Shown: positions 40,483-57,478 of the stretch, piece by piece | Numbering within the stretch: the first letter of the stretch is position 1 | Layout: the number at the start of each line of letters is the position of its first letter | Assembly (NCBI RefSeq): GCF_002735925.1 | Contig: NZ_PEDL01000004.1 | Span: 124,001 to 188,000 of the forward strand | DNA length: 64,000 nt | Origin: Sporanaerobium hydrogeniformans | GTDB lineage: Bacteria > Bacillota > Clostridia > Lachnospirales > Cellulosilyticaceae | Reading direction: 5' to 3' | Program-made: the position numbers and the translations under genes | The notes under the pieces: model-generated | Databases searched by the model: none | What the model saw: the letters and a program-made list of their open reading frames with translations, nothing else | What the model was told of the DNA's origin: nothing

Positions 40483-40854
40483 TTATTTTAATGTAACTTT
40501 AGCGCCAACTTCTTCTAATTTAGCTTTAATTGCTTCAGCATCTTCTTTAGATATGCCTTCTTTAAGAACTTTTGGAGCGCCATCTACAGCTTCTTTAGCT
40601 TCTTTTAAGCCAAGACCTGTGATTTCACGAACAACTTTGATAACTTTGATTTTTTCTGCGCCAGCTTCTGTAAGCTCAACATCAAATTCAGTTTTCTCTT
40701 CAGCTGCTGCTGCACCTGGAGCTGCTGCAACCATAACACCTGCTGCTGCTGATACACCAAATTCTTCTTCACATGCTGATACTAAATCGTTTAATTCTAA
40801 AATAGTTAATTCTTTAACTGCATCAATAATTTCTTGGATTGATAATTTTGCCAT
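40483..40854 (-). CDS. rplL: 50S ribosomal protein L7/L12
   Basis: A 123-residue stalk protein that recruits translation factors. [20 protein letters not shown] is the dimerisation domain, an Ala-rich hinge follows, and [20 protein letters not shown] is the factor-binding C-terminal domain. The ATG at 40854 is 8 bases after GGAGG. Confidence 0.98.
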
Positions 40855-40893
40855 TATAAGCACCTCCGTAATTTTTTATTAAAATAGTTTTTA

Positions 40894-41382
40894 TTATTCT
40901 GCTTTGTTTTCTGCAACTTGTTTGATAACACGTGCAAAACTTGCAATTGGAGACTTGAAGCTTCCAAGTAAACGACCAAGTAATTCTTCTCTTGGTGCAA
41001 TGTTACCGATAGCCATCATGCCTTTTGCGTCATAGTAGTGACCTTCTACAACACCTGATTTAAATCCGAGTTTTTCATTAGCTTTTGCTGCTTTTGCAAG
41101 AATTCTTGGTCCTGCTGTTGCATCTTCATAAGAAATAGCAATAGCTGTTGGTCCTTCAAGATCTTTAGAAATCTCAGCGAATTCTGTGCCTTCAATAGCA
41201 AAGTTAACCATAGTGTTTTTGAATACTTTGTATTCTACACCAGCTTCACGAAGTTCTTTACGAAGCTTAGTATCTTGGTCTACTGTAAGACCACGGTAGT
41301 CTACTAATAAAACCGATGAAGCTCCGTTAAGTTTTTCTTTAATTTGGTTAACAACCACTTGTTTTTGTTCTACTTTTGCCAT
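40894..41382 (-). CDS. rplJ: 50S ribosomal protein L10
   Basis: A 162-residue L10 that anchors L7/L12 dimers to 23S rRNA. LNGASSVLLVDYRGLTVDQD and LRKELREAGVEYKVFKNTM are typical. It is preceded by its own promoter and a classical L10 leader, so it is controlled separately from the island upstream. Confidence 0.98.
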   Translation of the reverse strand: MAKVEQKQVVVNQIKEKLNGASSVLLVDYRGLTVDQDTKLRKELREAGVEYKVFKNTMVNFAIEGTEFAEISKDLEGPTAIAISYEDATAGPRILAKAAKANEKLGFKSGVVEGHYYDAKGMMAIGNIAPREELLGRLLGSFKSPIASFARVIKQVAENKAE

Positions 41383-41548: not shown

Positions 41549-41577
41549 AGTATAACACTATAAAATAAGCTTGTCAA
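41549..41577 (-). promoter_or_regulatory. Promoter of rplJ-rplL
   Basis: Minus-strand TTGACA (41577-41572), a 17-base spacer and TATACT (41554-41549) lie only about 65 bases after the last island gene. The island ends exactly before this promoter. Confidence 0.9.
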
Positions 41578-41642
41578 CTTTTAATATCATGTAAAAAATA
41601 GGTATTGAAAGTTTTAATGCTATTATCCTTAGTAACTTTAAC

Positions 41643-42416
41643 CTACCATACTTTCCAAAAAGCTTTGTCTTTCTTCCACATATTAATTAATTGTCCTAAA
41701 TCTCTTTCATTATCCATACAAGTCCATAATCCCTCGTGCTTATAAACAGCTATTTTATCCATTTCAGCAAGCCTTTCAAATGTTCCATATTCTAAATCGC
41801 AATTATCATCTTCAGTAAGATAATCTAAAAGCTCTCTTTCAAATACCATATAACCTCCATTAATAAGCCCTTGTGAAGTTTGTGATTTCTCTTCAAAACT
41901 CTTCAGAATACCACCTTCCTCTATTAGTTCCCCAAATCTAGCTGGAGGATGTACTCCTGAGATTGTAACTAATTTTCGTTTGTTTAAATGATAATTAATT
42001 AGTTCATCAATATTAATGTTAGCTAATCCATCTCCATAAGTAAGTAGATTTATTCCTTCATCTAAATATTTTTCTACTTTCTTAAGTCTAGCACCTTTTA
42101 AAGCATCTAATCCTGTATCAACTAAGGTTACCTTCCATTCCTGTTCATCATGCTGAGTATGAAACTCTACTGTCCCATCTCCACAATGAACAGTAAAATC
42201 ATTCGTTCGCTCTTTGTAATGTAAAAAATAGTCTTTTATCAAATGTGATTTATAACCTAAGCAAATAACAAAGTCCTTAATACCGTAATGAGAATATATC
42301 TTCATGATATGCCATAATATAGGCTTACCACCTATTTCCACCATAGGCTTAGGAACAATGCTTGTAATTTCACCAAGTCGGCTTCCATAACCCCCTGCTA
42401 AAATAACTAGTTTCAT
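41643..42416 (-). CDS. rfbF: Glucose-1-phosphate cytidylyltransferase (RfbF/AscA)
   Basis: A 257-residue nucleotidyltransferase making CDP-glucose from CTP and glucose-1-phosphate, the first step of CDP-3,6-dideoxyhexose synthesis. LVILAGGYGSRLGEITSIVP, KPMVEIGGKPILWHIMKIYS and the metal motif TYGDGLANI are characteristic of RfbF rather than dTTP-using RfbA. It ends the island, 70 bases after a reductase-like gene. The dehydratase for the next step is at 61561-62643. Confidence 0.92.
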   Translation of the reverse strand: MKLVILAGGYGSRLGEITSIVPKPMVEIGGKPILWHIMKIYSHYGIKDFVICLGYKSHLIKDYFLHYKERTNDFTVHCGDGTVEFHTQHDEQEWKVTLVDTGLDALKGARLKKVEKYLDEGINLLTYGDGLANINIDELINYHLNKRKLVTISGVHPPARFGELIEEGGILKSFEEKSQTSQGLINGGYMVFERELLDYLTEDDNCDLEYGTFERLAEMDKIAVYKHEGLWTCMDNERDLGQLINMWKKDKAFWKVW

Positions 42417-42486
42417 ATACTTTACCTACCTTAATTTATATATTATTTATATCGACATTTTACTTATTTTAAAATAGTATCTACAA

Positions 42487-43386
42487 TTATTCTTCCCTAT
42501 CTATTTCCAACATCTTAGCAAGCCCATCTTTTAGATTTAATATTTCTTCATTTGCTAAAATATTTTTTTCTTTACATTGAATCTTCATTATTTCTCTTGT
42601 TCGATAAGGCCTCTTTCCCCAGTATACATTTAGTTTTCTATTACTTACCTCTTCAAATATCTTCACAACATTTTTTAGTGTTAAGTATTCTTTAGGTGAC
42701 ACAATATATGTCTTTTCCTCATGTGCCTTCATGGCTACTAATTCTTTTAATGCTTTTTTATAAGCCTTAATTACATCATCTATATAAACTAATCCTAATT
42801 CTTGTTCCCCACCTGACATTTCTAAAATTTTATTTGTTTGAGATGCATCCTTGATTAAATTAAGGATTTTTCCTCTTGAATCACGTGGTCCATAAGTATC
42901 CATTAATTTTAGCGTAATTATTCTTAAATCTGAAGTTTCCAAATAAAATTTTGCTATTTTTTCAAAAGCCTCTTTTGTTGCAGCATATAAGTTAACAGGA
43001 TTATAATCTTCTCCCAAATAATGTTGCCAATACGTTCCCGTATTAAGAAAATATTTTACTCCACACAATACACTAACCTCTAACAACTGGGCTCCAAATA
43101 AAATATTGCTACTAATAAGTCTTTCTACATCCTCTTTTTCATGATTCACCTTAAACAGTGATGCTAAATGTATAACTACTGTAGGTCTTACCTCATTAAA
43201 GATATCATTTAAATTTTGTATATCCTGGGTATATACATGAATATTTTTTTCTTTAATCTTACTTGCTATTAAACAATAATTCGAATCCTTTCTTACTAAA
43301 ACATGAACCTCATTTCCTTCTTCTATCAATTTATTCACTAAATTTGAACCAATATATCCTGTAGCTCCACTTACTAATATCTTCAT
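42487..43386 (-). CDS. NAD(P)-dependent epimerase/reductase of the SDR family (CDP-sugar pathway)
   Basis: A 299-residue extended SDR from the ATG at 43386, well spaced from AAAGG. The nucleotide motif is GATGYIGSNL, and the catalytic pair is YAATK with Thr/Ser upstream (NTGTYW). It sits between rfbH and rfbF, the place of reductases such as RfbJ (abequose) or AscF (ascarylose). With the RmlC-like epimerase in the same run, a final 4-keto reduction to an L-3,6-dideoxyhexose is the best guess. The exact sugar cannot be told. Confidence 0.75.
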   Translation of the reverse strand: MKILVSGATGYIGSNLVNKLIEEGNEVHVLVRKDSNYCLIASKIKEKNIHVYTQDIQNLNDIFNEVRPTVVIHLASLFKVNHEKEDVERLISSNILFGAQLLEVSVLCGVKYFLNTGTYWQHYLGEDYNPVNLYAATKEAFEKIAKFYLETSDLRIITLKLMDTYGPRDSRGKILNLIKDASQTNKILEMSGGEQELGLVYIDDVIKAYKKALKELVAMKAHEEKTYIVSPKEYLTLKNVVKIFEEVSNRKLNVYWGKRPYRTREIMKIQCKEKNILANEEILNLKDGLAKMLEIDREE

Positions 43387-43444
43387 GCATTTTTCCTTTC
43401 TGTATAATAAATACTCCAAAGAAATTAATCCTTGGAGTACTCGT

Positions 43445-44791
43445 TTATTCTCCCATAGAGCGTTGAACATATTGTTCTATGCACCTAACCATATAGTCAA
43501 GCATACTTCTGGTCATCCCTGGATAGACACCAATCCAAAATACATTATTCATTACATACTCTGTATTATGCAAATCACCTACTTGCCTATACTGCTTTGT
43601 ATCTCTTATTGTATCAAAACAAGGATGTTTTATAATGTTACCTGCAAATAGCATCCTCGTCTGAATCTTTTTAGATTCTAGGTACTTAACAATATCATTT
43701 CTATTAAAATGAGTATTAGCTTTTACCCCTATCACAAATCCAAACCAACTTGGCTCTGTATTTTCATCCATTTCCGGCAAAGTAAATACAGTATTCATAT
43801 GCTCTAATTTCCGCCTTAAGTATTCCCAATTTTCTTTCCTAGCTTTAATAAAATTGGGAAGCTTTTCTAATTGTGCACATCCAATAGCCGCTTGCATATC
43901 TGTAATCTTAAGATTATATCCCAAATGACCATACACATATTTATGATCATATCCCACTGGTAACTCTCCGTACTGCTTACTAAATCGACTACTACATAAA
44001 TTATCTACACCTGAAGGACAACAACAATCTCTCCCCCAGTCTCTTAAAGATAATAAAATTTTAGCCAAAATAGAATTGTTCGTATATACTGCTCCTCCCT
44101 CTCCCATGGTTATATGGTGTGGTGGATAGAAACTTGATGTTCCAATATCACCTATCGTTCCTGTATATTTCCATTCATTATCAATGTAATATTTAGAACC
44201 TAATGCATCGCAATTATCTTCTACTAGCCATAGATTATATCTATTACAAAACTGACGTATTTTTTCTAGGTTAAACGGATTCCCTAAAGTATGGGCTATC
44301 ATTACTGCCTTTGTTTTTTCTGTTCTTGCTAACTCTAACTGACTACAATCAATGTTGTACTCAGGAATAGTGATATCTACAAACACTGGTACAGCCCCAT
44401 ATTGAATAATAGGTGATATTGTAGTAGGAAAACCTGCTGCAACCGTAATCACCTCATCCCCCCTATTGATTCTCCTTTCACCTAAAAGAGGCGACGTAAG
44501 TGCCATAAATGCAAGTAAATTGGCACTAGAACCTGAGTTACAACTATAACAATATTTAACGTCTAGAAATTTTGCTAACCCTATTTCAAACTCCTTTGTA
44601 TATCTTCCAGATGTTAGCCAAAATTCCAAACTAGCATCTATAAGATTTTCAAGTTCTCTTTCGTCATATACTCTTGCCGCATAAGGAACTCTATCACCTT
44701 GTAAGTATTCATCATGTTTTAAATGTTCTTGCCGATAATACTCCTCAACCAACTTCATAATTTCTTGCTTTATTTGCTCTGAATTCTTCAT
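43445..44791 (-). CDS. rfbH: CDP-4-keto-6-deoxyglucose 3-dehydrase, E1 (RfbH/AscC/DdhC)
   Basis: A 448-residue PMP-dependent enzyme of the aminotransferase fold. In SFYPPHHITMGEGG the catalytic Lys of aminotransferases is replaced by His, the hallmark of E1. DNCDALGSKY binds PMP. The Cys-containing stretch GRDCCCPSGVDNLCSSRFSKQ fits the [2Fe-2S] region of E1. It removes the C3 hydroxyl together with an E3 flavoprotein; no E3 gene is visible in the window. It precedes the SDR gene by about 58 bases. Confidence 0.92.
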   Translation of the reverse strand: MKNSEQIKQEIMKLVEEYYRQEHLKHDEYLQGDRVPYAARVYDERELENLIDASLEFWLTSGRYTKEFEIGLAKFLDVKYCYSCNSGSSANLLAFMALTSPLLGERRINRGDEVITVAAGFPTTISPIIQYGAVPVFVDITIPEYNIDCSQLELARTEKTKAVMIAHTLGNPFNLEKIRQFCNRYNLWLVEDNCDALGSKYYIDNEWKYTGTIGDIGTSSFYPPHHITMGEGGAVYTNNSILAKILLSLRDWGRDCCCPSGVDNLCSSRFSKQYGELPVGYDHKYVYGHLGYNLKITDMQAAIGCAQLEKLPNFIKARKENWEYLRRKLEHMNTVFTLPEMDENTEPSWFGFVIGVKANTHFNRNDIVKYLESKKIQTRMLFAGNIIKHPCFDTIRDTKQYRQVGDLHNTEYVMNNVFWIGVYPGMTRSMLDYMVRCIEQYVQRSMGE

Positions 44792-44817
44792 GATAATCCC
44801 TCTTTTAAATCAATATA

Positions 44818-45420
44818 TTACTTATAAACAAATGGTGAATTGAACTGACATAGCTTCTTAAAAGATTGATCTCTTTCTGAAAGTATAAATTTTTCATTCC
44901 CCCAATTCATACCAAAGCTATCCCACCTAATACCACCTTCGTAGTCTTTATTATATTCATTGGACATCTTATAAAATATAATACTATCTTCCTCCAATGC
45001 CATATACCCATGAGCAAAGCCTTCTGGGATATACAGCATATTTCTCTTCTCTTCAGTAAGTTCTATAGTATCATATCGTCCATATGTCGGAGACCCTTCC
45101 CTTATATCTAAAATAACATCTTTAATCCTTCCCTTAATACAATAAACAAGTTTAGCCTGTCCAAAAGGTGGGTTTTGAAAATGCATACCACGAATAACAC
45201 CTTTTTTAGATGTTACCATTAAATCCTCAAAGAATTCTTCCTTTATATCTAGTAAATGAAAAGTTGACTTATGAAAATATTTTATAGATATACCTCGATT
45301 GTCGTAAAAACCATTACATATAATCTCCTTGCAACCTGGCAGTCTAGTATTATGTATAGTATATATGTTTTTACTAGATAAACATTTTCCCATAATTATA
45401 ATATCTCGCTTTCCCTTCAT
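44818..45420 (-). CDS. RmlC-like nucleotide-sugar 3,5- or 5-epimerase
   Basis: A 200-residue cupin of the RmlC family: TRLPGCKEIICNGFYDNRG, VIRGMHFQNPPFGQAKLVYC and IPEGFAHGYMAL carry the conserved Arg, His and Tyr region. In a cluster with rfbF and rfbH it is best read as an AscE-type epimerase acting on a CDP-4-keto-3,6-dideoxysugar. A dTDP-rhamnose role is less likely because no rmlA, rmlB or rmlD is present. The first ATG lacks a clear ribosome site and a start near residue 10 is possible. Confidence 0.78.
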   Translation of the reverse strand: MKGKRDIIIMGKCLSSKNIYTIHNTRLPGCKEIICNGFYDNRGISIKYFHKSTFHLLDIKEEFFEDLMVTSKKGVIRGMHFQNPPFGQAKLVYCIKGRIKDVILDIREGSPTYGRYDTIELTEEKRNMLYIPEGFAHGYMALEEDSIIFYKMSNEYNKDYEGGIRWDSFGMNWGNEKFILSERDQSFKKLCQFNSPFVYK

Positions 45421-45546
45421 GTACTACTATTTCATATTCAATTTCTTATTATCACGTTATTGAATATCTTTATTAAATAGTGCTTTAATTTATTCACATT
45501 AACATCAACAGCTATTTCAAATCAAACTTATGTCATTATATTTAAA

Positions 45547-47349
45547 CTATATTAAATCAGTCAAAGAAATGACTCTTACTATGGCTTTATATTCTGCTCT
45601 TGCTTGCTTTTCAATAACACTAAAATAGTCCACTAGGGGAATAATTATAGTATCTATTTTTTCTTGAGCAATAATTTCAGGAGAATATACAATTTTCCCA
45701 TTTAAAATACTGCCTTGTTTCATTTTTGATGAATCTATAAAGTAAATACCTTCATCACTAATCTGATCTACATACTCAAAAAATTCACATATGTAATCAT
45801 TAATTCCCCATACACCTATTTTCTTTGATTCCTTCAAAAGCTCTCCAAGATTTTTATTTATTTCAAGAACAATATCTTTCATGATAGGCATTTTATGACG
45901 TTGACCACATACTTTGCAAGTTATAGGGTTTCTATTGAATAGCCTCACATGTTCCCACACATTATCCGATTTGCATGTGGCACATTTAGCTCTAAAAGAT
46001 ATATTCTTTTTAATCTTATCAATTTCTACATTTCTTATCTGAAATGGTACCTTTAAATTTTGTTGTGGTAGTATAGATATCTGTTGAGATATATATGCAA
46101 CTTCATCCTTTGTCATTTTTGATATATTTATAGTGGGACACCCTTCTTTTAAGAAAGCAATTTCGTCTTTTATTATTCCTTTTTCAACGGCATATTTATA
46201 TATAGGTGTACCAGGAAAAGTGGTAACAAAAATTAATCCTATTGCATAATATGAATGTTCCTTCCACCAATTAAGCGTATTAGTTGCTGTTTCTATTGTT
46301 TCTTCAACATCACCAAAAATAAATGTTCCTTGAGTTGCAATACCCACATCATATGCTAACTTTAGTGCTTTTTCTGTCTGTTGTATGGTAATTCCCTTTT
46401 TCATGCTCTTTAAAATACGATTATCTGCACTTTCTAATCCAAATCCCATAATCTCACAGTTGCTATCTTTTAATAAGAGTACTAATTCCTCAGTAATATC
46501 ACATACTCTAAATTGAGCATGCCACTTTATATCATATTTTTTAATACATGAACAAAACTCTTTAACCCTCTCCATATTATAGGCAAAAAGTTCATCTGCT
46601 ATAAAGATATATTTAACACCATACTTTTCGACTAAATAATCTAATTCCTCAAAGAAATTGTTAAGTGAACGCTGCCTATACTTTTTCCCACTAGAATGAA
46701 AACAAAATGTACATTGAAATGGGCATGAACGACTGGATAACATAGTAATAGTGTTAGTATGATTAATCCCTAAAGTACAAGCCTCTGCGTTCATTATCTT
46801 ATCAAATCCAAACCCCTCATAGTCTGGGAACGGAATAGTATCTAGATCTTCTATTTCTGGTCTAGGTAAATTTCTGACATACTTTCCATCTTTCTTATAG
46901 ATAATGCCTTTAATTTTCCCTATGTTTTTACCCTCTTCTATAGCTTCAGTTAGTTCACAGTTTGTTATTTCTCCTTCACCAATAATTCCATAATCTACAA
47001 ATTCTAATGCCTCCATTGCAACCTCAGGAACACTAGTTATAATTCCTCCACCTACTATTGTCACGATATCTTTTTTTATATATTTTGCTTCTGATACTAT
47101 TTCCTTAATGGCATTATATTGAAAAGATAATCCACCAGTAGAAATAATTTCAATATCATTACGTTCTATCTCATACTTTAAAATGTCATATACATCACCT
47201 TCCACATTATTCAAGTTCAAAGTATATATATTATAACCTGCTCTTTTTAACGCAGAAGATACATACGGTATCCCTAAAGGAAATGTGTACCACTCTCCTA
47301 CTCTATCAACCACACGAGGCATAACTAGTAACTGATTTGCTTTTTTCAT
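45547..47349 (-). CDS. Radical SAM protein of the B12-binding/Elp3-like type with C-terminal zinc ribbon
   Basis: A 600-residue protein. Residues about 1-150 form a cobalamin-binding-like fold (IVGGGIITSVPEVA, YGIIGEGE), but the DxHxxG cobalamin motif is not visible. The radical SAM site is Cys209, Cys213, Cys216 (CPFQCTFC). A CATC/CKVCG ribbon lies near residues 440-475, followed by a Rossmann-like end (KKIGVWGINDYICEFFEY). B12-type radical SAM enzymes methylate or rearrange unactivated carbons; the substrate here is unknown, possibly a sugar. It has a good GGTGGGG ribosome site. Confidence 0.8.
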   Translation of the reverse strand: MKKANQLLVMPRVVDRVGEWYTFPLGIPYVSSALKRAGYNIYTLNLNNVEGDVYDILKYEIERNDIEIISTGGLSFQYNAIKEIVSEAKYIKKDIVTIVGGGIITSVPEVAMEALEFVDYGIIGEGEITNCELTEAIEEGKNIGKIKGIIYKKDGKYVRNLPRPEIEDLDTIPFPDYEGFGFDKIMNAEACTLGINHTNTITMLSSRSCPFQCTFCFHSSGKKYRQRSLNNFFEELDYLVEKYGVKYIFIADELFAYNMERVKEFCSCIKKYDIKWHAQFRVCDITEELVLLLKDSNCEIMGFGLESADNRILKSMKKGITIQQTEKALKLAYDVGIATQGTFIFGDVEETIETATNTLNWWKEHSYYAIGLIFVTTFPGTPIYKYAVEKGIIKDEIAFLKEGCPTINISKMTKDEVAYISQQISILPQQNLKVPFQIRNVEIDKIKKNISFRAKCATCKSDNVWEHVRLFNRNPITCKVCGQRHKMPIMKDIVLEINKNLGELLKESKKIGVWGINDYICEFFEYVDQISDEGIYFIDSSKMKQGSILNGKIVYSPEIIAQEKIDTIIIPLVDYFSVIEKQARAEYKAIVRVISLTDLI

Positions 47350-47379
47350 ACTGTCCCCACCTTTTAATATATATTAACT

Positions 47380-47419
47380 TACTCTATATATAAATCTAAC
47401 TACCATATATAAATTTAAC
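47380..47419 (-). repeat. Two imperfect tandem 19-21-base direct repeats
   Basis: Plus-strand TACTCTATATATAAATCTAAC (split as 47380-47400) is followed at once by TACCATATATAAATTTAAC (47401-47419). They lie in the leader of the 600-residue gene, after an ATTGCTAC/GTAGCAAT inverted repeat. They may be promoter elements or simple AT-rich duplication. Confidence 0.45.
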
Positions 47420-47463
47420 TTCCATAAATTGCTACAACATTTCTTTGTTTAATCTCGTAGCAA

Positions 47464-48477
47464 TTAAAGATAAAAATCAATCAACCTTTTGACCTCTTTA
47501 TCCAGTAAATCTTCTTCACTCATCATATATCTATATTGACTACATGTACGACATATAGGATATTCATTTTTTTGATTACTTAATTGTTTTAGCCGAAAAG
47601 AGTTAAATTCTTTTCCATTCCATATATCATAAAGACTGACTTCCGTACAGTTTCCCAAAATGGTTGTAGTCTCCATTGCACAACAAGGTACAATATTACC
47701 TTCTGGGTTAATCTGCATCATATAAAAGGGTTGAGGACATACTTGAGTTTCTAAAAGTTTATTTCCATTTTGCGTAACCGCATGGGTTGTCACATTAAAC
47801 TTACTCTTGTAATCAATTTGTGGAACTGCAGGTAATAAATGTTCAATGGCAATGGTGTCACAAATATCTCCAAACATGTCAAAAAATAATGTTTCTTCAT
47901 TCTTTTCAATAGCACAATCAATAATTTTTATGTATACTTGTGTTTCCTTTCGATTCTTATAAAAATAGCTTATATTTTGTACCAATTCTTCTAGATTTAC
48001 TTCCCTCTGTGTAATATTTTTATATTGCTTTTCTGTTACTCCCTGTATTGATATTCTTAATTTTGAAAGTCCTGCACTAATTAATTTATCTGCTAATTTT
48101 TTAGTAAGAAGTGCCCCATTGGTCACTATATCTATACTCTTAGCCACGCCCTTTTCTTTGGCATATGCTACCATTTCTGTAATATTAGGGTGCAACAAAG
48201 GCTCCCCTGTCCCTGCAAAGCGTAACATTTTAATAGGTTGTGGGAATCTAGTTAAATCATCTATACACTTTTTATAAACACCCAATTCCAACATCTTTTT
48301 ATCTGCAATATAACTTCTCTCATTTAAAGGTACAGAATGAATACAATATTCACAGCTAAAATTACATGCATACACCGGAAACACCTGTACAATATAGGGT
48401 GTATCTAGCGGTAATGCTTGGGCAAGATTTGTTCGTTTGCCTCCTGGGGTTTGACCATCTATCCTAATAGCCTTCAT
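47464..48477 (-). CDS. Radical SAM/SPASM protein, third of a tandem trio
   Basis: A 337-residue protein with the cluster Cys38, Cys42, Cys45 (CNFSCEYC), GTGEPLLHPN for SAM binding, and a C-terminal SPASM-type set in VCPQPF, IVPCCAMET and CRTCSQY. Its ATG overlaps the TGA of the previous gene by 4 bases, so the two are translationally coupled. SPASM enzymes modify peptides or sugars (for example the aminoglycoside enzymes AprD4 and BtrN). Here, among sugar genes, a sugar substrate is the simpler guess. Confidence 0.82.
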   Translation of the reverse strand: MKAIRIDGQTPGGKRTNLAQALPLDTPYIVQVFPVYACNFSCEYCIHSVPLNERSYIADKKMLELGVYKKCIDDLTRFPQPIKMLRFAGTGEPLLHPNITEMVAYAKEKGVAKSIDIVTNGALLTKKLADKLISAGLSKLRISIQGVTEKQYKNITQREVNLEELVQNISYFYKNRKETQVYIKIIDCAIEKNEETLFFDMFGDICDTIAIEHLLPAVPQIDYKSKFNVTTHAVTQNGNKLLETQVCPQPFYMMQINPEGNIVPCCAMETTTILGNCTEVSLYDIWNGKEFNSFRLKQLSNQKNEYPICRTCSQYRYMMSEEDLLDKEVKRLIDFYL

Positions 48478-49511
48478 TTTCTCCCACCACAACTTTTCTG
48501 TGTCTTACTATCAATTCTTGTTAGTAGTACCTCAACTTCATTATCCAAAACATCCTCTGGGTGAGAAACATCATCTGGTGCACAACACACTGCACAGCGT
48601 TTATTTTCATATCTATTGCCTTTTAGCTGCTCTCTCCAAAATTTTTTTAAAAGAGGTCCATTCCACATATCTAATAATAATCCATCATTAATATTCCCCA
48701 ACACAATAGGTTTGTAAATAGTATCACATGGCTCTACATCCCCATTAGGAAAAATTCCTAACATAAAAAAAGGAAGTGGACACACCTTTCGTTTTTCATG
48801 TTTTCTACCATACCGATCATAATCTACTTGCATATTTTTAGTTAAACTAACCCCATCATATGCAGGAAGCATCTTTTCTATGTACATCCTATCTGAGCAT
48901 TCTTCAAACAGTTTATAAAATTCCTGTTCTTCTTCCTTCGCTAATGCCACGTCCATAATCTTCACATAAAGTTTCGTTTGTTTCTTAGCTTTATAAAAGT
49001 ATCTTATATTTTCCATATATTTATCAAAATCAATACCGACACCACATATCTCTTGGTATTTATCTGAGGTAATCCCCTGTAAAGAAATCCTTAAGGTGTC
49101 TAATCCTGCTTCTATAAGGGCATTTGATAATTCTGGTGTAAGTAATGCTCCATTACTAATAATCTCTACTCTTTCAGCTATATTCGCTTCCTTTGCCATT
49201 CTCACCATAAGTGGCAAATTTTTATTAATAAGCGGTTCACCTTGTCCTGTAAGTGAAAGCATCTTCAATTTCTTTGGAAATTGTTTCATCTGAAAAATAA
49301 ATTTTTCATAAACTTCCATACTCATAGTTTCAGGTATAAAATCATAAGCTTCTTTCATCTTATTGTGCCCCATAGAATGCGCACAATAAACGCATTTGAA
49401 ATTGCAGTAAGTTGTAGGAAATACAAATATACTAAAAGGTGTATCTAAGGGAAGAACTTCTGATAACTTTGTTCTTTCCGTTCCATAAATAGGTTTAATT
49501 TCTGATGCCAT
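48474..49511 (-). CDS. Radical SAM/SPASM protein, second of a tandem trio
   Basis: 345 residues; cluster Cys36, Cys40, Cys43 (CNFKCVYC); LTGQGEPLINKNLP; SPASM-like Cys in KVCPLPFF, DVEPCDT and CAVCCAPDD. The opening EIKPIYGTERTKLSEVLPLD closely parallels the genes on either side, as expected from tandem duplication. It starts at an ATG behind GAGGGGG. Function is not known; differences around the SPASM Cys residues suggest that the three copies have diverged. Confidence 0.82.
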   Translation of the reverse strand: MASEIKPIYGTERTKLSEVLPLDTPFSIFVFPTTYCNFKCVYCAHSMGHNKMKEAYDFIPETMSMEVYEKFIFQMKQFPKKLKMLSLTGQGEPLINKNLPLMVRMAKEANIAERVEIISNGALLTPELSNALIEAGLDTLRISLQGITSDKYQEICGVGIDFDKYMENIRYFYKAKKQTKLYVKIMDVALAKEEEQEFYKLFEECSDRMYIEKMLPAYDGVSLTKNMQVDYDRYGRKHEKRKVCPLPFFMLGIFPNGDVEPCDTIYKPIVLGNINDGLLLDMWNGPLLKKFWREQLKGNRYENKRCAVCCAPDDVSHPEDVLDNEVEVLLTRIDSKTQKSCGGRK

Positions 49512-49539
49512 ATGTTACCCCCTCTATTATTGGATTTAT

Positions 49540-50565
49540 CTATTCAAAGTATTTAATTAAATTTTTAGCATCCATATCTAAATTTTCTGCTGAATTACTA
49601 ATGCACTTGAAAGTAGTACAATGATCACATGTAGGAATTGAATTTCTATTAAATTCTAGCATGGTTCTTAATAATTTCTTTCTTTTTTCACCATTCCAAA
49701 TTTCTAACAATGTATTTTCTTTTAAATTTCCCATTGACAAACTTACTGGTAATCCTGGATTAGGACATGGGAACAAATCATAATCACAACCAATTTGAAG
49801 AAAATAAAAAGACTGTGCACATACTTTCCTCTCATCCTCCATTTTTTCATTATAAAAATTTCTACTTTCATCTACTACTGCTTTTAGTTCTTCCATTTCC
49901 TTCTGCATTACTATAAGATGCTCAATATATATTTTATCACATATATTACCAAATATATCAAAAAAAGCTTGTTCGGCTTCTTTAGTTTTTAATGTGGCAT
50001 CAATGGCTTTAATATATATTTGAATATTACCTTTATGATCATATAAATACTTCAGATTATCAACAAATCTATTAAAGTCTATTTTCACACCACAAGTCTC
50101 CTCATACTGAATGGCAGAAATTCCTTGTATTGAAATATTAATATTAGTTACCCCTGCTTTAATAAGTTTATCACTTGTTTCAGGAGTTAATAAAGCTCCG
50201 TTTGTAATAATCTCTACTCTGTCAGCAACTCCACTATCTACTGCTAACTTCACCATATCTGGCAATGCAGGATTCATTAATGGTTCACCTAAACCTGAAA
50301 ATACTATTCTTTTTATTCCAGTTGGAAATTCTTTTAACTGCTTGATTATGAGCTCGAACATGTTAAAATCCATATGTTTTATCCTATGTCCAAGTTGTTG
50401 AAAAGCACCACCTTCTATATCTCGAGTGGCATGCATACAATAAAAACATTTAAAATTACAATATCTTGTTTGCTCAATATATACTGTAAAAGGCGCCTGT
50501 AAAGGAATAATTTCTGCTAATTTCTTTCTATTGGTATCATAATATGGTTTTAATTCTGCTTTCAT
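49540..50565 (-). CDS. Radical SAM/SPASM protein, first of a tandem trio
   Basis: 341 residues from the ATG at 50565, which lies inside the end of the glycosyltransferase gene. Cluster Cys36, Cys40, Cys43 (CNFKCFYC); FSGLGEPLMNPALP; SPASM-like Cys in VCAQSFYF, DLFPCPNPG and CDHCTTFKC. Same opening pattern (ELKPYYDTNRKKLAEIIPLQ) as its two neighbours. An upstream TTG start would add four residues. Confidence 0.82.
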   Translation of the reverse strand: MKAELKPYYDTNRKKLAEIIPLQAPFTVYIEQTRYCNFKCFYCMHATRDIEGGAFQQLGHRIKHMDFNMFELIIKQLKEFPTGIKRIVFSGLGEPLMNPALPDMVKLAVDSGVADRVEIITNGALLTPETSDKLIKAGVTNINISIQGISAIQYEETCGVKIDFNRFVDNLKYLYDHKGNIQIYIKAIDATLKTKEAEQAFFDIFGNICDKIYIEHLIVMQKEMEELKAVVDESRNFYNEKMEDERKVCAQSFYFLQIGCDYDLFPCPNPGLPVSLSMGNLKENTLLEIWNGEKRKKLLRTMLEFNRNSIPTCDHCTTFKCISNSAENLDMDAKNLIKYFE

Positions 50566-51802
50566 TTTTTTCAACAACCTCTCTTAATTTTTTATCTTGT
50601 GGAAAATACTTAACATAATGCTTTACTGAGCCTTTTGTCTCAGCAAAAGCATTGCCTGTAATCCTTTCATCATCTCCACTATAGCCACTCTTAAACCATT
50701 CATATGGTGTTGTTCCCACTACCCCCCTTATATCATGAAATGTCTTGTGCTTTTGCATCAACTTTATATAATGTGCATTTAGCCGTTCAACTGTTTTTTG
50801 CACACTATACTCTCTAATAATAAATGCTGATGCATTATTTCCTAATCTGATTCTCTCCTCTGGGTATTTAGATAACCAATGAATTGCTTCACCATATTCT
50901 TTAATATTATTTACAATGAGACCTGTTTTCATATGTTGAACAGTATACTTCTCTATACATTGGTTAAGCACTACAGGCACTACACCAGCAGCCATAGCTT
51001 CAAGTAACGCGTTCTCTGCTGTGCCATAATGCTCTGGATTAAGTGGGTATCCAAATACATCTAACTCTCTTAACTTTTCTTCTACATTTAAAACATATCC
51101 CTCGAATACTACCCTATCTTTTATTAGTGATGAGTTATTAACATCAACTTGTAATTGTCCTCCATAACTCATATCACCTATAATTTCAAAATTTATATTT
51201 GGTATATGAGCTGCCGCTTCACAAAATTTCACAAACTCTGGATGGATCTTATTATAACTTAAGAAACCTATATACCCTACATTAAACGTATTATGCTCTT
51301 TTTTAACAACTGCACCTTTAAAATCTACTCCCGAACTTATAATAACATCTGATATAGTTTTAATTTCTTCTCTTTGCTCTCTTGACCAACCACTATTTTC
51401 ATAAGAAAAAGGGGTGGAAAATAAAAATTGATCTGCCACTTTAACTAACTGTGGTGATATGTAAGGATAGTTGCACCCAGATATATGGCTCCATATTACT
51501 AATCTACATTTTATTTTTTCTAAATACTTACTCATAAATTCAGAGGTAAGGGGATGATGCCACCAATCCACCTGTACTATATCTGCTTCTTCTATTAACT
51601 CTTCAACATTACAGTTAGCCTGTCCTATAACTTGAATATCATGTTCCCTACATAAATCTTGAAATTGAGAAATTTGTGTCTCTTCCAAGGTCAAAATAGT
51701 ATGCCTAACCTGTTTATTTTCTTTTGAACAAATAGCTACGCTAGAAAGAATCCTGCCAATTCCTCCCCCTAAATGTGCTGCTACGTGGACAACCTGTATC
51801 AT
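50537..51802 (-). CDS. Glycosyltransferase, GT4-type (GT-B fold)
   Basis: A 421-residue cytosolic enzyme. The N-terminal acceptor domain has HLGGGIGRIL. The C-terminal donor domain has VGYIGFLSYNK, FEGYV and the retaining-GT4 donor motif EHYGTAENALLEAMAAG, where E-x7-E is seen. It transfers a nucleotide-activated sugar with retention. About 60 extra residues follow the usual end. The ATG lies behind GGAGG. It overlaps the first radical SAM gene. Confidence 0.85.
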   Translation of the reverse strand: MIQVVHVAAHLGGGIGRILSSVAICSKENKQVRHTILTLEETQISQFQDLCREHDIQVIGQANCNVEELIEEADIVQVDWWHHPLTSEFMSKYLEKIKCRLVIWSHISGCNYPYISPQLVKVADQFLFSTPFSYENSGWSREQREEIKTISDVIISSGVDFKGAVVKKEHNTFNVGYIGFLSYNKIHPEFVKFCEAAAHIPNINFEIIGDMSYGGQLQVDVNNSSLIKDRVVFEGYVLNVEEKLRELDVFGYPLNPEHYGTAENALLEAMAAGVVPVVLNQCIEKYTVQHMKTGLIVNNIKEYGEAIHWLSKYPEERIRLGNNASAFIIREYSVQKTVERLNAHYIKLMQKHKTFHDIRGVVGTTPYEWFKSGYSGDDERITGNAFAETKGSVKHYVKYFPQDKKLREVVEKNESRIKTIL

Positions 51803-51811
51803 CTCTTCCTC

Positions 51812-52978
51812 CTATTCAGTGGGAAAGGCATATAAAACTGTCTCAAACCCCATAAAGTTGTAACTTCTTAGATAAAACTTGTATCCTGAATAATAACTAC
51901 TAATTAAAAGTGGTATTTCCCATATATGAGAGATAGAATGATAAACACAAATAGCTAATTGTGGATGATTTTCTATTATTGTGTTTTTACAACCTTTTAT
52001 GGCATCTACCTCGGCACCTTCTATATCCATTTTAATAAAGCTAGGTTTAAATCCTTTTAATACATCATCTATAGCCACACACTGAATAATATCATCTCCA
52101 TGTGTATCTACTCTGGCAGATGATGTTGCTTCTGCACAGGTATTGAATTTTAGTTTTGCAAACTCTGAATGTACACCACATGGAAATACTGTTGCAAATT
52201 CAATACTTGGTGTTATCTTAATGTAATCTGCTATTTTTCTACATAAGTCATTTTGAGGTTCAAAAACAGCTATAGACTGAATATCAATATTACTATTAAT
52301 AAGATTCCTTATAGTATCCCCATCAAATCCACCACAGTCTATAAATCTAGAATAATCCTTTTTAATACTAATATCATCTGCTAAATATTGTTTGCATATG
52401 TCTTGAGGTAATTCTAAATTAGAAAAATCTGCTTTTAAACGTGATTCTATATATCCAATATACAATTTTCTATCTTGTTCTTCCTCTAACAATTTGAATG
52501 CTTGTATTACTTTGTCTCTATCTCTGTTTAATATATCTTCCTTATTATACGGATCATTGAATATTTCCTCATAAAATGCTTTATTCCTAATAGTGGAACA
52601 GTTAATTTCATTTAATCCATAAACATTTTTAAATCCAAGTTCATATAATCTATTTTTAATGTCTTTTGTAACACTTAAAGAAAATAATCCTGCCAAAATG
52701 ACTACTGCTTTACTTTTATATTCCTCTAATTCTACTGCCTCTGGTAAGTATACATTCACTTCATATATAGATTTATCTATTTCCTTATTTTTGTCTATAA
52801 ATCCCACTATATTAAATGTTCCTTCTTTTAACTTTCTATATAATTTCTTGCCTATATTGCCCGCTCCATAGAGTAAAATGGATTTTTTATCTAACTCTAC
52901 AACCTTATCCATATTTTTATCTAATAAATTATTTTCAAAGTCATCTAACATTTTTTCTAAATCATATATATTATTCAT
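51812..52978 (-). CDS. FkbM-family methyltransferase with N-terminal Rossmann-like domain
   Basis: A 388-residue protein. Residues about 30-130 (ILLYGAGNIGKKLYRKLKEG, NIVGFIDKNKEIDK) form a GxGxxG domain often fused to sugar-modifying enzymes. The C-terminal FkbM domain has FIDCGGFDGDTIRNL and FIKMDIEGAEVDAIKG, the SAM-binding and family signature. FkbM enzymes O-methylate sugars or polyketides. It lies 9 bases ahead of the GT4 gene. The start has only a weak ribosome site. Confidence 0.85.
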   Translation of the reverse strand: MNNIYDLEKMLDDFENNLLDKNMDKVVELDKKSILLYGAGNIGKKLYRKLKEGTFNIVGFIDKNKEIDKSIYEVNVYLPEAVELEEYKSKAVVILAGLFSLSVTKDIKNRLYELGFKNVYGLNEINCSTIRNKAFYEEIFNDPYNKEDILNRDRDKVIQAFKLLEEEQDRKLYIGYIESRLKADFSNLELPQDICKQYLADDISIKKDYSRFIDCGGFDGDTIRNLINSNIDIQSIAVFEPQNDLCRKIADYIKITPSIEFATVFPCGVHSEFAKLKFNTCAEATSSARVDTHGDDIIQCVAIDDVLKGFKPSFIKMDIEGAEVDAIKGCKNTIIENHPQLAICVYHSISHIWEIPLLISSYYSGYKFYLRSYNFMGFETVLYAFPTE

Positions 52979-53099
52979 GTCTTCACGCTCTCTATATAGT
53001 TTTACATATTACCTATTTTTTTCAGTACTAAAAATACTTCAAAAGAAAGTAGTTTCTATATCATAAAATCAATCTACATTTAATGTTTTACTTATTTTT

Positions 53100-54614
53100 T
53101 TACTTTTGAATGCATAAGAGATATTCTTTGCATACTATTCTATTTATTATCTCACTATCTTCTGGTAACTCAAGAGTTTGAAAAATAGTATTAATTACCC
53201 CTCTACCATTTTCATCAAGTTGATGATTTATAGCAGAAATTTTTATATCCTCTATATTCATTTGCTGCAAACATATAAATAAATCATCTATGGAAATATG
53301 TATTGGCATCTCTTTATCTACTATTTCCCTATTTCCCAAAATACCATACAACATTCTAACATCCATTGTATTAGTAAGCTTACATAGCAATACTCCTCCT
53401 TTTTCAAGTAATGCTAACAATCGTCCAATAATACGTATAGGCTTATCATATGTATTAATGGGTTCTCCTAGGAGAATACACCCTACTGACTCTTTATCAA
53501 AGTATTCTTCTAAATAATCCATTCTATCACACGCCACCTCTGTATTACATACCGTCTGCAAATCAGCATAATACTTAGCTTGCGTCGTAAAACCAGAGAT
53601 TAACAGCTGTTGTACATTAGAATTGCACCTTAAATAATTTTTAAGCTCTAACAAAGGTGCGCCACACCTAATATCAATTCCCAACAAATGAAGCTTTATC
53701 TTTTGTTTAATAACATTTGGTAACATTTGAATAAGGGGGGTTTCCATATTCAAAATATCTTCCCATGCATCTATACCATAATGCTTATCCTTAAAATTTT
53801 GTGCTCCCCTTGCTAAGGATTCTCTAAATACTTCTGAATCCTTATTTTCACCAATAAAAATATTATGATCATGATGAACAAATGTGTCACCTAATAATAT
53901 CATTTTATATCCGGCACGTCGTATTCTAAAGCACATATCATCCTCACCAAAATCATGAAAAAATCCTGTGTCAAACACGCCTACTGTATCAAGTACCTCT
54001 CTTCTAATCCCCATTATAGGAGTCACCAACCGCATTCTTTCTTGCCATTTTTTAGGATTGCTAATGTTAAATAGCCTTGCTTGTGCTTGCATCTCTTCAC
54101 ATGTTTTAAAATTTAGTCTTGGATCTTGAAGATTACTTACATTAGATGACATAGGAACAACTAGTCCTATCCTACAATCTGATTTTATACATCTTAAAAT
54201 ATTTGCTAACCAATTTTCTGTCACATAAACGTCATTACAAACTCCAACTAAAATATTTGCGGTGTAATGTCTAAGAATTTCACTTAATAGAAAACCGGTA
54301 CCTATATTTTTAGTAATTCTTATAATCTTTTTTCTAGGATGTACCACACTCTCAAAAAATTCTAACGTTCCATCAGTAGAACCGTTGTCCAATAATATGA
54401 GTTCGTAATCTACATTTTTAGTATGTGCTAAGATGCATTCTATGCAATAGCGTGTTTTGTCTAGTCTGTTATATGCTACGACATATATACTTACCTCAGG
54501 TATAGTTGCTCTCTCACGATTCGTATAGTTGTTTTTCCTTGATTCATAAAGATTACTACCCACCTTCGGAGTCTCCATAGTCTGTGTATCTATAATTATA
54601 ACTTCACCCTGCAT
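53100..54614 (-). CDS. GT2 glycosyltransferase fused to a methyltransferase-like domain
   Basis: A 504-residue protein from the ATG at 54614, 7 bases after GGGAG. The GT-A domain (about 40-290) shows VSIYVVAYNRLDKTRYCIEC, LILLDNGSTDGT, VGVCNDVYV as the DxD-like site and FGEDDMCFRIRRAGYKMIL. The remainder (about 310-504), with AKYYADLQTVC, EKGGVLLCKLTNT and ending in a Rossmann-like pattern, resembles a degenerate class I methyltransferase. It is the first gene of the island operon. Confidence 0.8.
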   Translation of the reverse strand: MQGEVIIIDTQTMETPKVGSNLYESRKNNYTNRERATIPEVSIYVVAYNRLDKTRYCIECILAHTKNVDYELILLDNGSTDGTLEFFESVVHPRKKIIRITKNIGTGFLLSEILRHYTANILVGVCNDVYVTENWLANILRCIKSDCRIGLVVPMSSNVSNLQDPRLNFKTCEEMQAQARLFNISNPKKWQERMRLVTPIMGIRREVLDTVGVFDTGFFHDFGEDDMCFRIRRAGYKMILLGDTFVHHDHNIFIGENKDSEVFRESLARGAQNFKDKHYGIDAWEDILNMETPLIQMLPNVIKQKIKLHLLGIDIRCGAPLLELKNYLRCNSNVQQLLISGFTTQAKYYADLQTVCNTEVACDRMDYLEEYFDKESVGCILLGEPINTYDKPIRIIGRLLALLEKGGVLLCKLTNTMDVRMLYGILGNREIVDKEMPIHISIDDLFICLQQMNIEDIKISAINHQLDENGRGVINTIFQTLELPEDSEIINRIVCKEYLLCIQK

Positions 54615-54864
54615 TATCTTACTCCCATCTCTCACAGTATAAATACATTTATATTATATTTCGACTTACTTCATAAATAATTAATATTAGCCTATAAATA
54701 TCTAACTATTGCTTACTCAACTTTACCATCTCAAAAGTGCGGTCAACGCTTGATAAATCAAGAAAAACAACTTGATAATTCAGTGCATTGACCTAAAAAA
54801 AGCACCTAACCTTGGTATAATAAGTTTAGTGAAAACAAAATCATACAAGAAAAGTGCTAAACTT

Positions 54865-55579
54865 ATGATAAACCATAATACTTCATATGACCATATCGAA
54901 AATCAATTTGCCAATGCCATCAAGGAATTAGGCGTTGGAAAGATGCTTTGGAAAGTCACTATTAGAAAACCCAGTGAAGTTCCAGCGTATTAAGTATTTA
55001 AATTTTTATTACTTCTAGTATTTTAGAGAAAGACTCTGTTTCATTTCCTGAATTCTAAACAGAAAAATTAGCCTGTTTCTAAAAATACTCGTCCTGAAAG
55101 AGTAAAGGTTTTTGTATTGGACAATTCTGTTATCACAGCTGATTACGTTTTGATGGATACTTGGTTTACCACTGAGTCAATGATTAAAGAGACCCTATCT
55201 CTTGGATTACACTCCATTGGAATGGTTAAGCAGTTAAAACAACGCTACACCTGCAAAAGCAAACAATACAAGCTTCCAAAATCGAGAAGGTTTGTAGATT
55301 TTGAAGGCGCTAGAGATGTATTTGGCTCTCTCCTTGTGACAACGAAAACAGAAATTTCAGCACCGTACCTATGATGTAGTGGTTAGCCATACAGCTATTA
55401 TATTTACCAGATATACCATTCTGGAGTGGGTCCGCTGGAATCAGGATGATCAAAAAACGTATGTTAAATTATTTTTCATGTTCTGTGAAGATATGTAGGA
55501 CATAGATTTAACCAATACACTGCAAAATCTTATGACTTTGTTTGTGGTACACATTTCAACTCTTTCAACAGAAAGTTGA
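54865..55579 (+). pseudogene. Decayed IS4-type (DDE) transposase
   Basis: Plus-strand pieces in different frames resemble one transposase. LWKVTIRKPSEVPAY is followed by a stop-broken FKFLLLLVF stretch. From 55117 comes ADYVLMDTWFTTESMIKETL with LGLHSIGMVKQLKQRY. After about 55370 a shifted frame reads AIIFTRYTILEWVRWNQDDQ and LFFMFCEDM. Frameshifts, stops and a missing central block show that it is dead. I see no clean terminal repeats. It is the only mobile-element trace near the rplA side of the island. Confidence 0.75.
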
Positions 55580-55589
55580 ACTATTCACA

Positions 55590-55639
55590 AAAAAGAGTTA
55601 TTGCATTAGCTATGTATCCGCTATGCAATAACTCTTTTT
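55590..55639 (-). terminator. Strong terminator after rplA
   Basis: Seventeen-base arms AAAAAGAGTTATTGCAT and ATGCAATAACTCTTTTT (55590-55606, 55623-55639) end on the minus strand in a run of six T, just 13 bases after rplA. Confidence 0.9.
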
Positions 55640-55652
55640 ATATATTTGCAGA

Positions 55653-56348
55653 TTATTCTTCAGCTTTCATTGGGTTGATTTTGATACCAGGGCCCATTGT
55701 TGATGAAACAGAGATGCTACGAAGGTATTGACCTTTAGCAGCAGCTGGTTTCGCTTTGATAACTGCACTCATTAATGTGTGGAAGTTGTCTTTTAATTTT
55801 TCTGTACCAAATGATACTTTACCAATTGGAACATGAATGATGTTTGTTTTATCAAGACGGTATTCGATTTTACCAGCTTTGATTTCATTGATAGCTTTTG
55901 TAACATCCATAGTTACAGTACCAGCTTTAGGGTTTGGCATTAAACCTTTTGGTCCAAGTACACGACCCAATCTACCTACAACACCCATCATATCTGGAGT
56001 TGCTACAACGATATCAAATTCAAACCAACCTTCATTTTGAATTTTTGGGATTAAATCTTCTGCTCCAACGAAGTCAGCACCTGCTGCTAATGCTTCATCA
56101 GCTTTAGGTCCTTTAGCAAATACTAAAACTCTTTGAGTTTTACCTGTACCATGTGGTAATACTACTGCACCACGAACTTGTTGGTCAGCATGACGGCTAT
56201 CTACACCTAATTTGATATGAGCTTCTACTGTCTCATCAAATTTAGCAGTTTTTGTTTTTTCAACTAACGCAAAAGCTTCTGATGGATCATACATTGCTGT
56301 ACGGTCTACAAGCTTAGCTGCTTCAATATATTTTTTTCCTCTTTTCAT
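55653..56348 (-). CDS. rplA: 50S ribosomal protein L1
   Basis: A 231-residue L1 of the mobile stalk that guides E-site tRNA release. [40 protein letters not shown] and [17 protein letters not shown] are diagnostic. L1 is also a translational repressor of its own operon in many bacteria; a candidate target motif precedes both rplA and rplK. Confidence 0.98.
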
Positions 56349-56424: not shown

Positions 56425-56850
56425 TTATTTTACAATTGTGATTCCCATAGAACGAGCTGTTCCAGAAATCATGCTCATAGCTGCTTCAACGCTCGCTGCG
56501 TTTAAGTCAGGCATTTTAAGCTCAGCAATTTTACGAATTTCTTCTTCAGAAATCTTAGCAATTTTATTTTTGATAGAGTTTGCTGAACCAGATTCAATTT
56601 TACAAGCTTTCTTTAAAAGAACTGCAGCTGGTGGAGTTTTTGTAATGAAAGAGAAAGATCTGTCTGCATATACAGTAATAACTACTGGGATGATGAGACC
56701 AGCATCTTTTGCTGTTCTTTCATTAAACTCTTTTGTAAATTGAACGATATTTACACCGTGTTGACCAAGAGCTGGACCAACTGGTGGTGCTGGAGTTGCT
56801 TTACCAGCAGCAATTTGTAATTTGATCATTCCTGTAACTTTTTTTGCCAT
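56425..56850 (-). CDS. rplK: 50S ribosomal protein L11
   Basis: A 141-residue L11 of the GTPase-associated centre, the target of thiostrepton and trigger of the stringent response. [20 protein letters not shown] and [18 protein letters not shown] are typical, and [15 protein letters not shown] ends it. Confidence 0.98.
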
Positions 56851-56959: not shown

Positions 56960-57478
56960 TTAGACAAGCACTTCTATTTGATTCATGCTTATCTCTACTG
57001 GGAATTCTCGTCCAAAACCACTAACAGATACAACAACTGTACCTTTAGAAGCATGGACTTCTTTGACAATACCTTCTGAGCCCTCAAACGCACCTGTAAG
57101 AAGCGTTACCGCATCTCCAACAGCTACATTTGGCATGAGCACTGCTGTATCGATTCCCATATTTTTAACCTCATCTAATGAAAGTGAAACAGGTTTGGAG
57201 TCAGGACCTACAAATCCTGTAACCCCTCTGGTATTTCTTACCACATACCAAGTATCATCTGTCATTATCATCTTGATTAATACATACCCAGGGAAAACTT
57301 TTCTCTGTACGGTTTTCTTTACACCGTTTTTTTCTTCGATTTCTTGTTGCAAAGGAACTTCTACAGCGTGGATGAGTTCTTGCATATTTCGATTTTTAAT
57401 CGCTTTTTCTATATTAGCTTTTACTTTGTTTTCATAGCCTGAGAAAGTATGAACTACATACCAACTTGCTTTCTCCAT
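56960..57478 (-). CDS. nusG: Transcription termination/antitermination protein NusG
   Basis: A 172-residue NusG. The NGN domain (WYVVHTFSGYENKVKANIEK, FPGYVLIKMIM) binds the RNA polymerase clamp; the KOW domain (GDAVTLLTGAFEGSEGIVKE) contacts Rho or S10. It follows secE by 16 bases. Confidence 0.98.
   Translation of the reverse strand: MEKASWYVVHTFSGYENKVKANIEKAIKNRNMQELIHAVEVPLQQEIEEKNGVKKTVQRKVFPGYVLIKMIMTDDTWYVVRNTRGVTGFVGPDSKPVSLSLDEVKNMGIDTAVLMPNVAVGDAVTLLTGAFEGSEGIVKEVHASKGTVVVSVSGFGREFPVEISMNQIEVLV

Follow-up and report, generated by a model that had tools for sequence, protein, structure and literature searches.

We identified a block of glycan genes between rplA and rplJ of Sporanaerobium hydrogeniformans, which is likely cargo in a breakable ribosomal joint that entered in the ancestor of one clade and likely forms the far half of a flagellin-glycosylation locus. 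The window, meaning the whole stretch of 64,000 nucleotides that was analyzed, lies within a 191-kb contig of a 3.74 Mb genome. Along the direction of transcription (minus strand), the end of a flagellin gene is followed by a glycosyltransferase-methyltransferase gene, rfbG, fliD, fliS, a fliT-like gene and a gene for an unknown protein of 143 aa. The order continues with rpmG, secE, nusG, rplK, rplA, the block, rplJ, rplL, rpoB, rpoC and more ribosomal genes. The 14.0 kb block holds 11 glycan or radical SAM genes, all on the minus strand (41643-54635), and sets rplA and rplJ 14.3 kb apart. The G+C content of the gap is 31.6%, compared with 36-38% in the ribosomal flanks. The ribosomal genes and the edges of the block are as follows:

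40483-40863, minus strand: rplL (L7/L12), open reading frame; the genome has one copy
40894-41382, minus strand: rplJ (L10), PF00466; one copy in the genome
41401-41539, minus strand: L10 leader RF00557, covariance model score 74.5 bits, above the gathering threshold of 44
41577-41549, minus strand: rplJ promoter TTGACA-17-TATACT, consensus score 11/12, aligned with relatives
54740-55590, plus strand: broken frames, probable dead transposase by resemblance
about 55590-55639, minus strand: intrinsic terminator 3' of rplA, hairpin plus T-tract, fold -23.7 kcal/mol
55653-56348, minus strand: rplA (L1), open reading frame
56425-56850, minus strand: rplK (L11), named by sequence and place, homologues in relatives
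56960-57478, minus strand: nusG, named by sequence and place, homologues in relatives
57495-57674, minus strand: secE (59 aa), named by sequence and place
57709-57861, minus strand: rpmG (L33), PF00471

A sequence-only reading of this DNA had placed a terminator after rplA, eleven glycan or radical SAM genes in the gap, and a promoter with an L10 leader before rplJ. All three were recovered, the terminator as a hairpin with a T-tract (-23.7 kcal/mol), the genes by open reading frames and Pfam, and the start signal as TTGACA-17-TATACT with RF00557 at 74.5 bits. Promoter-like matches in the consensus scan were overall at chance level (90 versus 85.1 expected), so support for the rplJ promoter comes from its site before the leader and from its counterpart in relatives. 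The consensus terminator scan, limited to loops of 3-8 bases, gave 4 matches versus 4.9 in shuffles, and the rplA terminator at 55590-55639 was not among them. Because rplA has its terminator and rplJ its own promoter and leader, both essential units should be able to work alone. The same reading had held that both ribosomal units stay functional; the predicted end signal for rplKA and start signal for rplJ were found, and function itself stays a prediction from these signals. It had also named a dead transposase after rplA. The broken frames at 54740-55590 (+) are there, and by resemblance we take them for a probable transposase. They gave no Pfam match, the 85-aa piece gave none up to E=1, and no second copy was found elsewhere in the genome.

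Pfam and curated models assigned the gap genes, and the genes on the far side of rpmG-secE-nusG-rplKA, as follows:

41643-42416, minus strand: rfbF, glucose-1-phosphate cytidylyltransferase, TIGR02623 314 bits (cut-off 300.25)
42487-43383, minus strand: NAD-dependent epimerase/dehydratase-type protein, possibly a sugar reductase, PF01370
43445-44791, minus strand: rfbH (3-dehydrase, DegT family), NF011936 718 bits (cut-off 423)
44818-45420, minus strand: RmlC-like sugar epimerase, PF00908; TIGR01221 151.8 bits, slightly below the cut-off of 155.75
45547-47349, minus strand: B12-binding radical SAM protein, PF02310 and PF04055
47464-48492, minus strand: radical SAM/SPASM protein 3, Pfam
48474-49511, minus strand: radical SAM/SPASM protein 2, Pfam
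49540-50577, minus strand: radical SAM/SPASM protein 1, Pfam
50537-51802, minus strand: glycosyltransferase group 1, PF13692/PF00534
51812-52978, minus strand: FkbM-type methyltransferase, PF05050
53100-54635, minus strand: glycosyltransferase family 2 protein, PF00535
57992-61479, minus strand: 143-aa unknown, fliT-like (PF05400 below cut-off), fliS (PF02561) and fliD (PF07195 and PF02465)
61561-62661, minus strand: rfbG, CDP-glucose 4,6-dehydratase, TIGR02622 504.5 bits (cut-off 278.45)
62934-63950, minus strand: C-terminal part of a 1009-aa protein that extends beyond the window, SunS-like glycosyltransferase (below cut-off) and methyltransferase

The CDP-3,6-dideoxyhexose (ascarylose/abequose) pathway uses rfbFGH, which are neighbors in other bacteria. 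RfbF and RfbG catalyze consecutive steps, and an AscD/RfbI-type reductase is the partner of RfbH. S. hydrogeniformans resembles this pathway in that the cytidylyltransferase RfbF, the 4,6-dehydratase RfbG and RfbH all score above their curated cut-offs. It differs in that rpmG-secE-nusG-rplKA splits the rfb genes and in that no RfbI/AscD-type iron-sulfur/flavin reductase is found among the 11 gap genes. The protein at 42487-43383 matched no NCBIfam family above its cut-off among the matches listed. CDP-glucose would be the product of RfbF and the substrate of the dehydratase RfbG, whose gene is next to fliD. The combined action of RfbH, the RmlC-like epimerase and a reductase would then yield a CDP-3,6-dideoxyhexose, our inferred sugar. 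The glycosyltransferases would use this sugar, and the FkbM-type and radical SAM enzymes would modify the product.

The state of the joint was compared in 24 family genomes including S. hydrogeniformans, and could be judged in 16. Eleven of the 24 have a compact joint of about 210-340 bp. Four have an expanded joint on one contig, namely S. hydrogeniformans (14.3 kb), G001 (5.1 kb), G004 (12.1 kb) and G003 (1.6 kb). In G006 the joint is expanded across a contig break, with no leader in the 211 bases 3' of rplA and with glycan genes before rplJ. The remaining 8 were uninformative (G002 with rplA only, G011 with rplJ only, and six with neither in the search). The five expanded genomes are S. hydrogeniformans and four members of its sister genus, and they form one clade in the concatenation of six proteins (99.2/99), in rpoB (96/95), in fusA (99/99) and in rplK (83/93). 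The rplJ tree also has this clade, with support left open (81/95) and poor resolution inside the sister genus, and the rplA tree lacks it (18% of bootstrap trees). The nusG tree places S. hydrogeniformans with a compact genus without rejecting the clade (p-AU 0.14); at this value the conflict is not significant, and we dropped it as a sign of gene exchange. Foreign genes lie between two otherwise intact operons in S. hydrogeniformans, compared with a compact state in 11 family relatives.

Beyond the family, 80 named rplA loci were collected as the best-scoring rplA relatives, an uneven sample in which a few are Epulopiscium records of the family itself. Four were dropped, with 111, 127, 643 and 1440 bases after rplA. 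The other 76 comprised 47 loci with rplJ within 600 bp, 11 with a larger gap, and 18 with no rplJ as judged on 5-10 kb after rplA. Among the matches listed, G202 exemplifies full separation of the operons: about 546 kb of its single contig separates rplA from rplJ. A broken joint had been called unusual, which is not supported. Such breaks are frequent in the relatives examined, with rplA and rplJ separated in 29 of the 76 informative named loci. For Proteobacteria, the available part of PMC4481853 places most splits at this joint, between rplKA and rplJL-rpoBC. The same joint is broken in our clade; the Proteobacterial splits, so far as that part of the text describes them, came without detected duplications. 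The available part of PMC8046335, which covers Gammaproteobacteria and Bacilli, describes an inter-operon gap invaded by a few genes with full separation later, proposes duplications and transposons as agents, and reports that Haemophilus influenzae lost rplJL from the operon and has a copy elsewhere. Our Clostridia resemble this account in that genes entered the inter-operon gap and separation is seen in other relatives. They differ from what that part of the study describes in their cargo turnover within one clade, the terminator at the split, and the 2-3 rplJL cassettes per genome in one genus. The words rplA and terminator are both absent from the available part of that text, and our literature search found no title on this arrangement in Clostridia.

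The terminator follows the state of the joint. A hairpin with a T-tract lies 3' of rplA in 5/5 expanded and 0/6 compact family members, in which rplA leads straight into the rplJ promoter and leader. At a cut-off of -8 kcal/mol, named loci had a terminator in 11/11 cases with a larger gap and in 13/18 with a lost neighbor (24/29 separated loci), versus 1/47 compact loci, many of which offered less sequence because the scan ended at the leader wherever the leader motif was present. Fourteen compact loci were scanned over the full 140 bases, and none had a terminator. The signal is usual in separated loci, not universal, as five of them are without it. Terminator sequences differ among the five expanded genomes, with an outer stem common to the closest pair, G004 and G006. 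Since compact relatives mostly have no terminator, that of rplA is probably derived and came with or after the separation. A clean insertion between an existing terminator and promoter is not supported, given the near absence of the signal in compact loci (1/47 named; 0/6 in the family).

Cargo differs among the expanded gaps. The S. hydrogeniformans gap holds CDP-sugar genes, four radical SAM genes, two glycosyltransferases and an FkbM methyltransferase. G001 has a DegT aminotransferase, an ATP-grasp protein, a methyltransferase and a glycosyltransferase, and the available part of the G006 gap has a DegT end, WbqC, a PglD-like hexapeptide protein, a nucleotidyltransferase and a dehydratase. 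G004 has NeuB, UDP-GlcNAc 2-epimerase, a cytidylyltransferase, FkbM and a polysaccharide deacetylase on its sugar side, together with DAHP synthase, AMP-binding, oxidoreductase and one unmatched protein that have no plain link to sugars. In G003 there is a fragment of an 'Integrase core domain' (rve, PF00665), together with short pieces that matched nothing in Pfam. In an all-against-all comparison (E<=1e-8), no S. hydrogeniformans gap gene matched another gap at >=30%. The sole pair above 40% between gaps was the DegT of G001 and G006 (64% over 106 aa, with part of the G006 gap missing). As judged from these sequences, the joint is common to the clade and the cargo is not, having apparently been replaced almost wholly in each lineage. 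Fixed flanks with variable cargo had been proposed as the sign of a hotspot, and S. hydrogeniformans and its sister genus display this pattern. The hotspot itself stands within this one clade, where five genomes are expanded with near-wholly different cargo; 11 other family genomes are compact.

The two sides of rpmG-secE-nusG-rplKA share pathway genes. RfbG and rfbF are the sole strong copies in the genome and lie on opposite sides of this operon; rfbG has 4 other genome matches, all weak (26-36%), and rfbF has one, also weak (34% over 64 residues). The upstream half of the presumed glycan locus stands beside flagellin, fliD and fliS, with the flagellin end (Flagellin_C, PF00700) adjoining the 1009-aa protein beyond the window, and the gap half is set apart by the ribosomal operon. 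A homologue of the 143-aa gene lies upstream of rpmG in 9 of 10 family relatives with sequence there, and fliT, fliS, fliD or flagellin is also found there in several. Sugar genes occur on either side as well. Nonulosonate-type genes, located in the gap of G004, occur upstream of rpmG in G001 and G006: a NeuB-type gene is on the flagellar side in G006, and cytidylyltransferase and epimerase genes are on that side in G001. Near fliT, G013 has a radical SAM/SPASM protein that is 28% identical to radical SAM/SPASM protein 2 of the gap. The gap cargo is most likely the overflow, or far half, of a flagellin-glycosylation locus upstream of rpmG-secE-nusG-rplKA, and the two sides may be read as one functional locus. 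Flagellin would be the acceptor of the sugars made by the gap enzymes, which could also serve another surface glycan. As in a flagellin island, sugar-nucleotide synthesis and transferase genes occur together and vary between species and genera. According to the available part of PMC5109656, Geobacillus flagellin glycosylation islands likewise have variable glycan genes between flagellin genes, with strain-to-strain differences. The Geobacillus island described there lies in a flagellar locus found via comFA and raiA, whereas here a part lies past a ribosomal operon. No publication found in our literature search had both 'flagellin glycosylation' and 'rplJ'. A surface-glycan locus, the arrangement suggests, can extend across an essential ribosomal operon, so a glycan gene beside ribosomal genes need not mean shared function.

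Flagellar genes beside rpmG were also considered as a general trait of the order and rejected, since only 4 of the 67 named loci with >=4 kb upstream matched the window fliS or fliD, a count that a diverged fliS or fliD could escape. Among the four, L042 matched fliS and fliD and the other three matched fliD only, on the opposite strand.

The break of the operon cluster is already known in other bacteria; new here are the extra cassettes in the sister genus. G003 has 3 rplJ and 3 rplL, G006 has 2 and 2, and G004 has 1 rplJ and 2 rplL. All other family genomes with a match have a single rplJ and a single rplL, and in the order sample (n=196) rplJ was matched in 187 genomes, of which G003 and G006 alone have multiple copies. 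Every rplJ in the window and in the loci scanned, a set of 11 out of 13 initially chosen, has an L10 leader in front of it. This includes each copy of G003 and G006; the lone rplL of G004 is immediately preceded by a second leader. Within a genome, rplJ copies differ by ~7-12% in DNA, much as between species of the genus, and rplL copies differ less. For the rplJ copies, dN/dS is about 0.04-0.2, a sign of purifying selection. The rplJ tree, poorly resolved there, has no paralogue clade common to species. The copies may have been acquired from relatives, or an older duplication may have been obscured by gene conversion.

Several other origins were weighed against cargo that entered a breakable joint in the clade ancestor. 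A site-specific integrative island with its attachment site at the rplA 3' end or the rplJ leader would account for variable cargo between fixed flanks, and for the transposon-like broken frames after rplA and the rve fragment of G003, which we read as an insertion-sequence transposase. We set it aside as highly improbable, because the Pfam-scanned gap proteins of S. hydrogeniformans, G001, G004 and the available part of G006 include no recombinase family, the window has no tRNA, and the two ends share no 11-mer, direct or inverted (0 and 0). The two inverted 10-mers lie within the control mean of 2.5, and the junction terminators differ except for the outer stem in G004 and G006. A neutral break-up, in which any genes land in the joint and the glycan cargo has no connection with the flagellar locus, draws on the sugar/peptide ABC transporter-like, patatin-like and sensor-like genes that we read in the joints of named relatives, and on glycosyltransferases in the joints of L022, L041 and L092. 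This is a weightier alternative that we nonetheless regard as unlikely, given that all 4 clade gaps with intact genes (of 5) hold sugar genes and that genes of CDP-sugar and nonulosonate type are divided by the ribosomal operon or lie on different sides of it in different genomes.

Errors of assembly were considered as well. The evidence for expanded joints comes from five genomes, three of which (G003, G004 and G006) are drafts with contamination estimates of 5-6% and contig ends near repeats. The extra rplJL copies and some expanded joints might then reflect misassembly or mixed genomes, which we consider improbable, as single contigs of G003 (C6) and G006 (C158) each carry two copies, and the expanded joint recurs in one-contig G001 and in S. 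hydrogeniformans (0.41% contamination). An assembly join may also exist at the block junctions of S. hydrogeniformans; against this, the block sits inside the 191-kb contig and the one-contig G001 genome has the same block plan.

In the favored account, glycan genes would have entered between rpmG-secE-nusG-rplKA and rplJL-rpoBC in the ancestor of S. hydrogeniformans and its sister genus. They would have entered by insertion sequences or by a segmental duplication followed by asymmetric loss, and less likely by a site-specific element. Recombination within the conserved ribosomal genes on either side would then exchange the cargo. Candidate traces of duplication or transposon activity are the broken frames in S. 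hydrogeniformans, whose rplJ and rplL are single-copy, the rve fragment in G003, and the rplJ or rplL copies in G003, G004 and G006. The cassette forms resemble intermediates of duplication and asymmetric loss, which fits the model as given in the available part of PMC8046335. If so, such intermediates would still be present in our clade. Breakage of strictly conserved gene clusters is usually inferred from end states. Here, compact, expanded, duplicated and half-deleted forms of an essential joint occur within one family, alongside a terminator that would render the break harmless. This puts the duplication-and-loss model within reach of a direct test.

A further idea, which we offer tentatively and consider possible though doubtful, is that the promoter-L10-leader-rplJ-rplL cassette acts as a docking unit. 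Incoming glycan cargo with its own cassette would recombine beside the resident one to give essential cassettes in tandem, and subsequent loss of one of them would place the new cargo between rplA and a functional rplJL. Cargo could then be swapped without interrupting synthesis of the ribosomal stalk, and the diverged copies of G003 and G006 and the leader-rplL remnant of G004 would be snapshots of the exchange. Carriage of rplJL by mobile elements was examined separately and rejected; none of the 56 plasmid and 13 phage records exceeded 80% identity (best 60.4% and 62.0%), and we take these records for chromosomal pieces filed in the plasmid and phage collections. No rplJL relative was found in viral contigs. 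Promoter assignments for the additional rplJ copies come from visual inspection of the alignment, and the first hexamer is weaker in two of the three copies of G003.

Within the glycan block between rplA and rplJ, a second strong promoter-like site, TTGACT-18-TATAAT (window:45535-45564, minus strand), was located just upstream of the RmlC-like gene. This site scored 11/12; promoter-like matches in this region as a whole occur as often as expected by chance. Perhaps it drives the four sugar genes. Three radical SAM/SPASM proteins are encoded in a row at window:47464-50577, adjoining a B12 radical SAM protein. Among the matches listed, none of the three exceeded a curated NCBIfam cut-off.

Two single-contig genomes of the order-wide sample, G202 and G040, carry hundreds of kilobases between rplA and rplJ, a distance that amounts to complete separation of the two genes. 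In the sister genus, G003 and G006 (L003, L004, and L006) each possess two or three diverged cassettes of L10 leader, rplJ, and rplL. Among the 187 genomes of the order with an rplJ match, only these two had more than one rplJ. G004, also of the sister genus, harbors a lone rplL directly behind an L10 leader, with no intervening rplJ (L005:1934-2474). The unit could be an additional source of L7/L12 under leader control.

In the nusG tree (window:56960-57478), the window genome was placed with a compact genus, in which rplJ lies close behind rplA, and not with its sister genus; this conflict was not significant (p-AU 0.14). Window:57992-58423 encodes a 143-aa protein without a Pfam match, possibly an export chaperone, with homologues upstream of rpmG in nine of 10 family relatives. 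In the four sister-genus genomes with an expanded rplA-rplJ joint (G001, G003, G004, and G006), matches to the window rpoC were interrupted near residues 511-520, and the aligned RpoC proteins were at least 33 aa longer than that of the window. Together, the break and the extra length suggest that rpoC of the sister genus carries an insertion.
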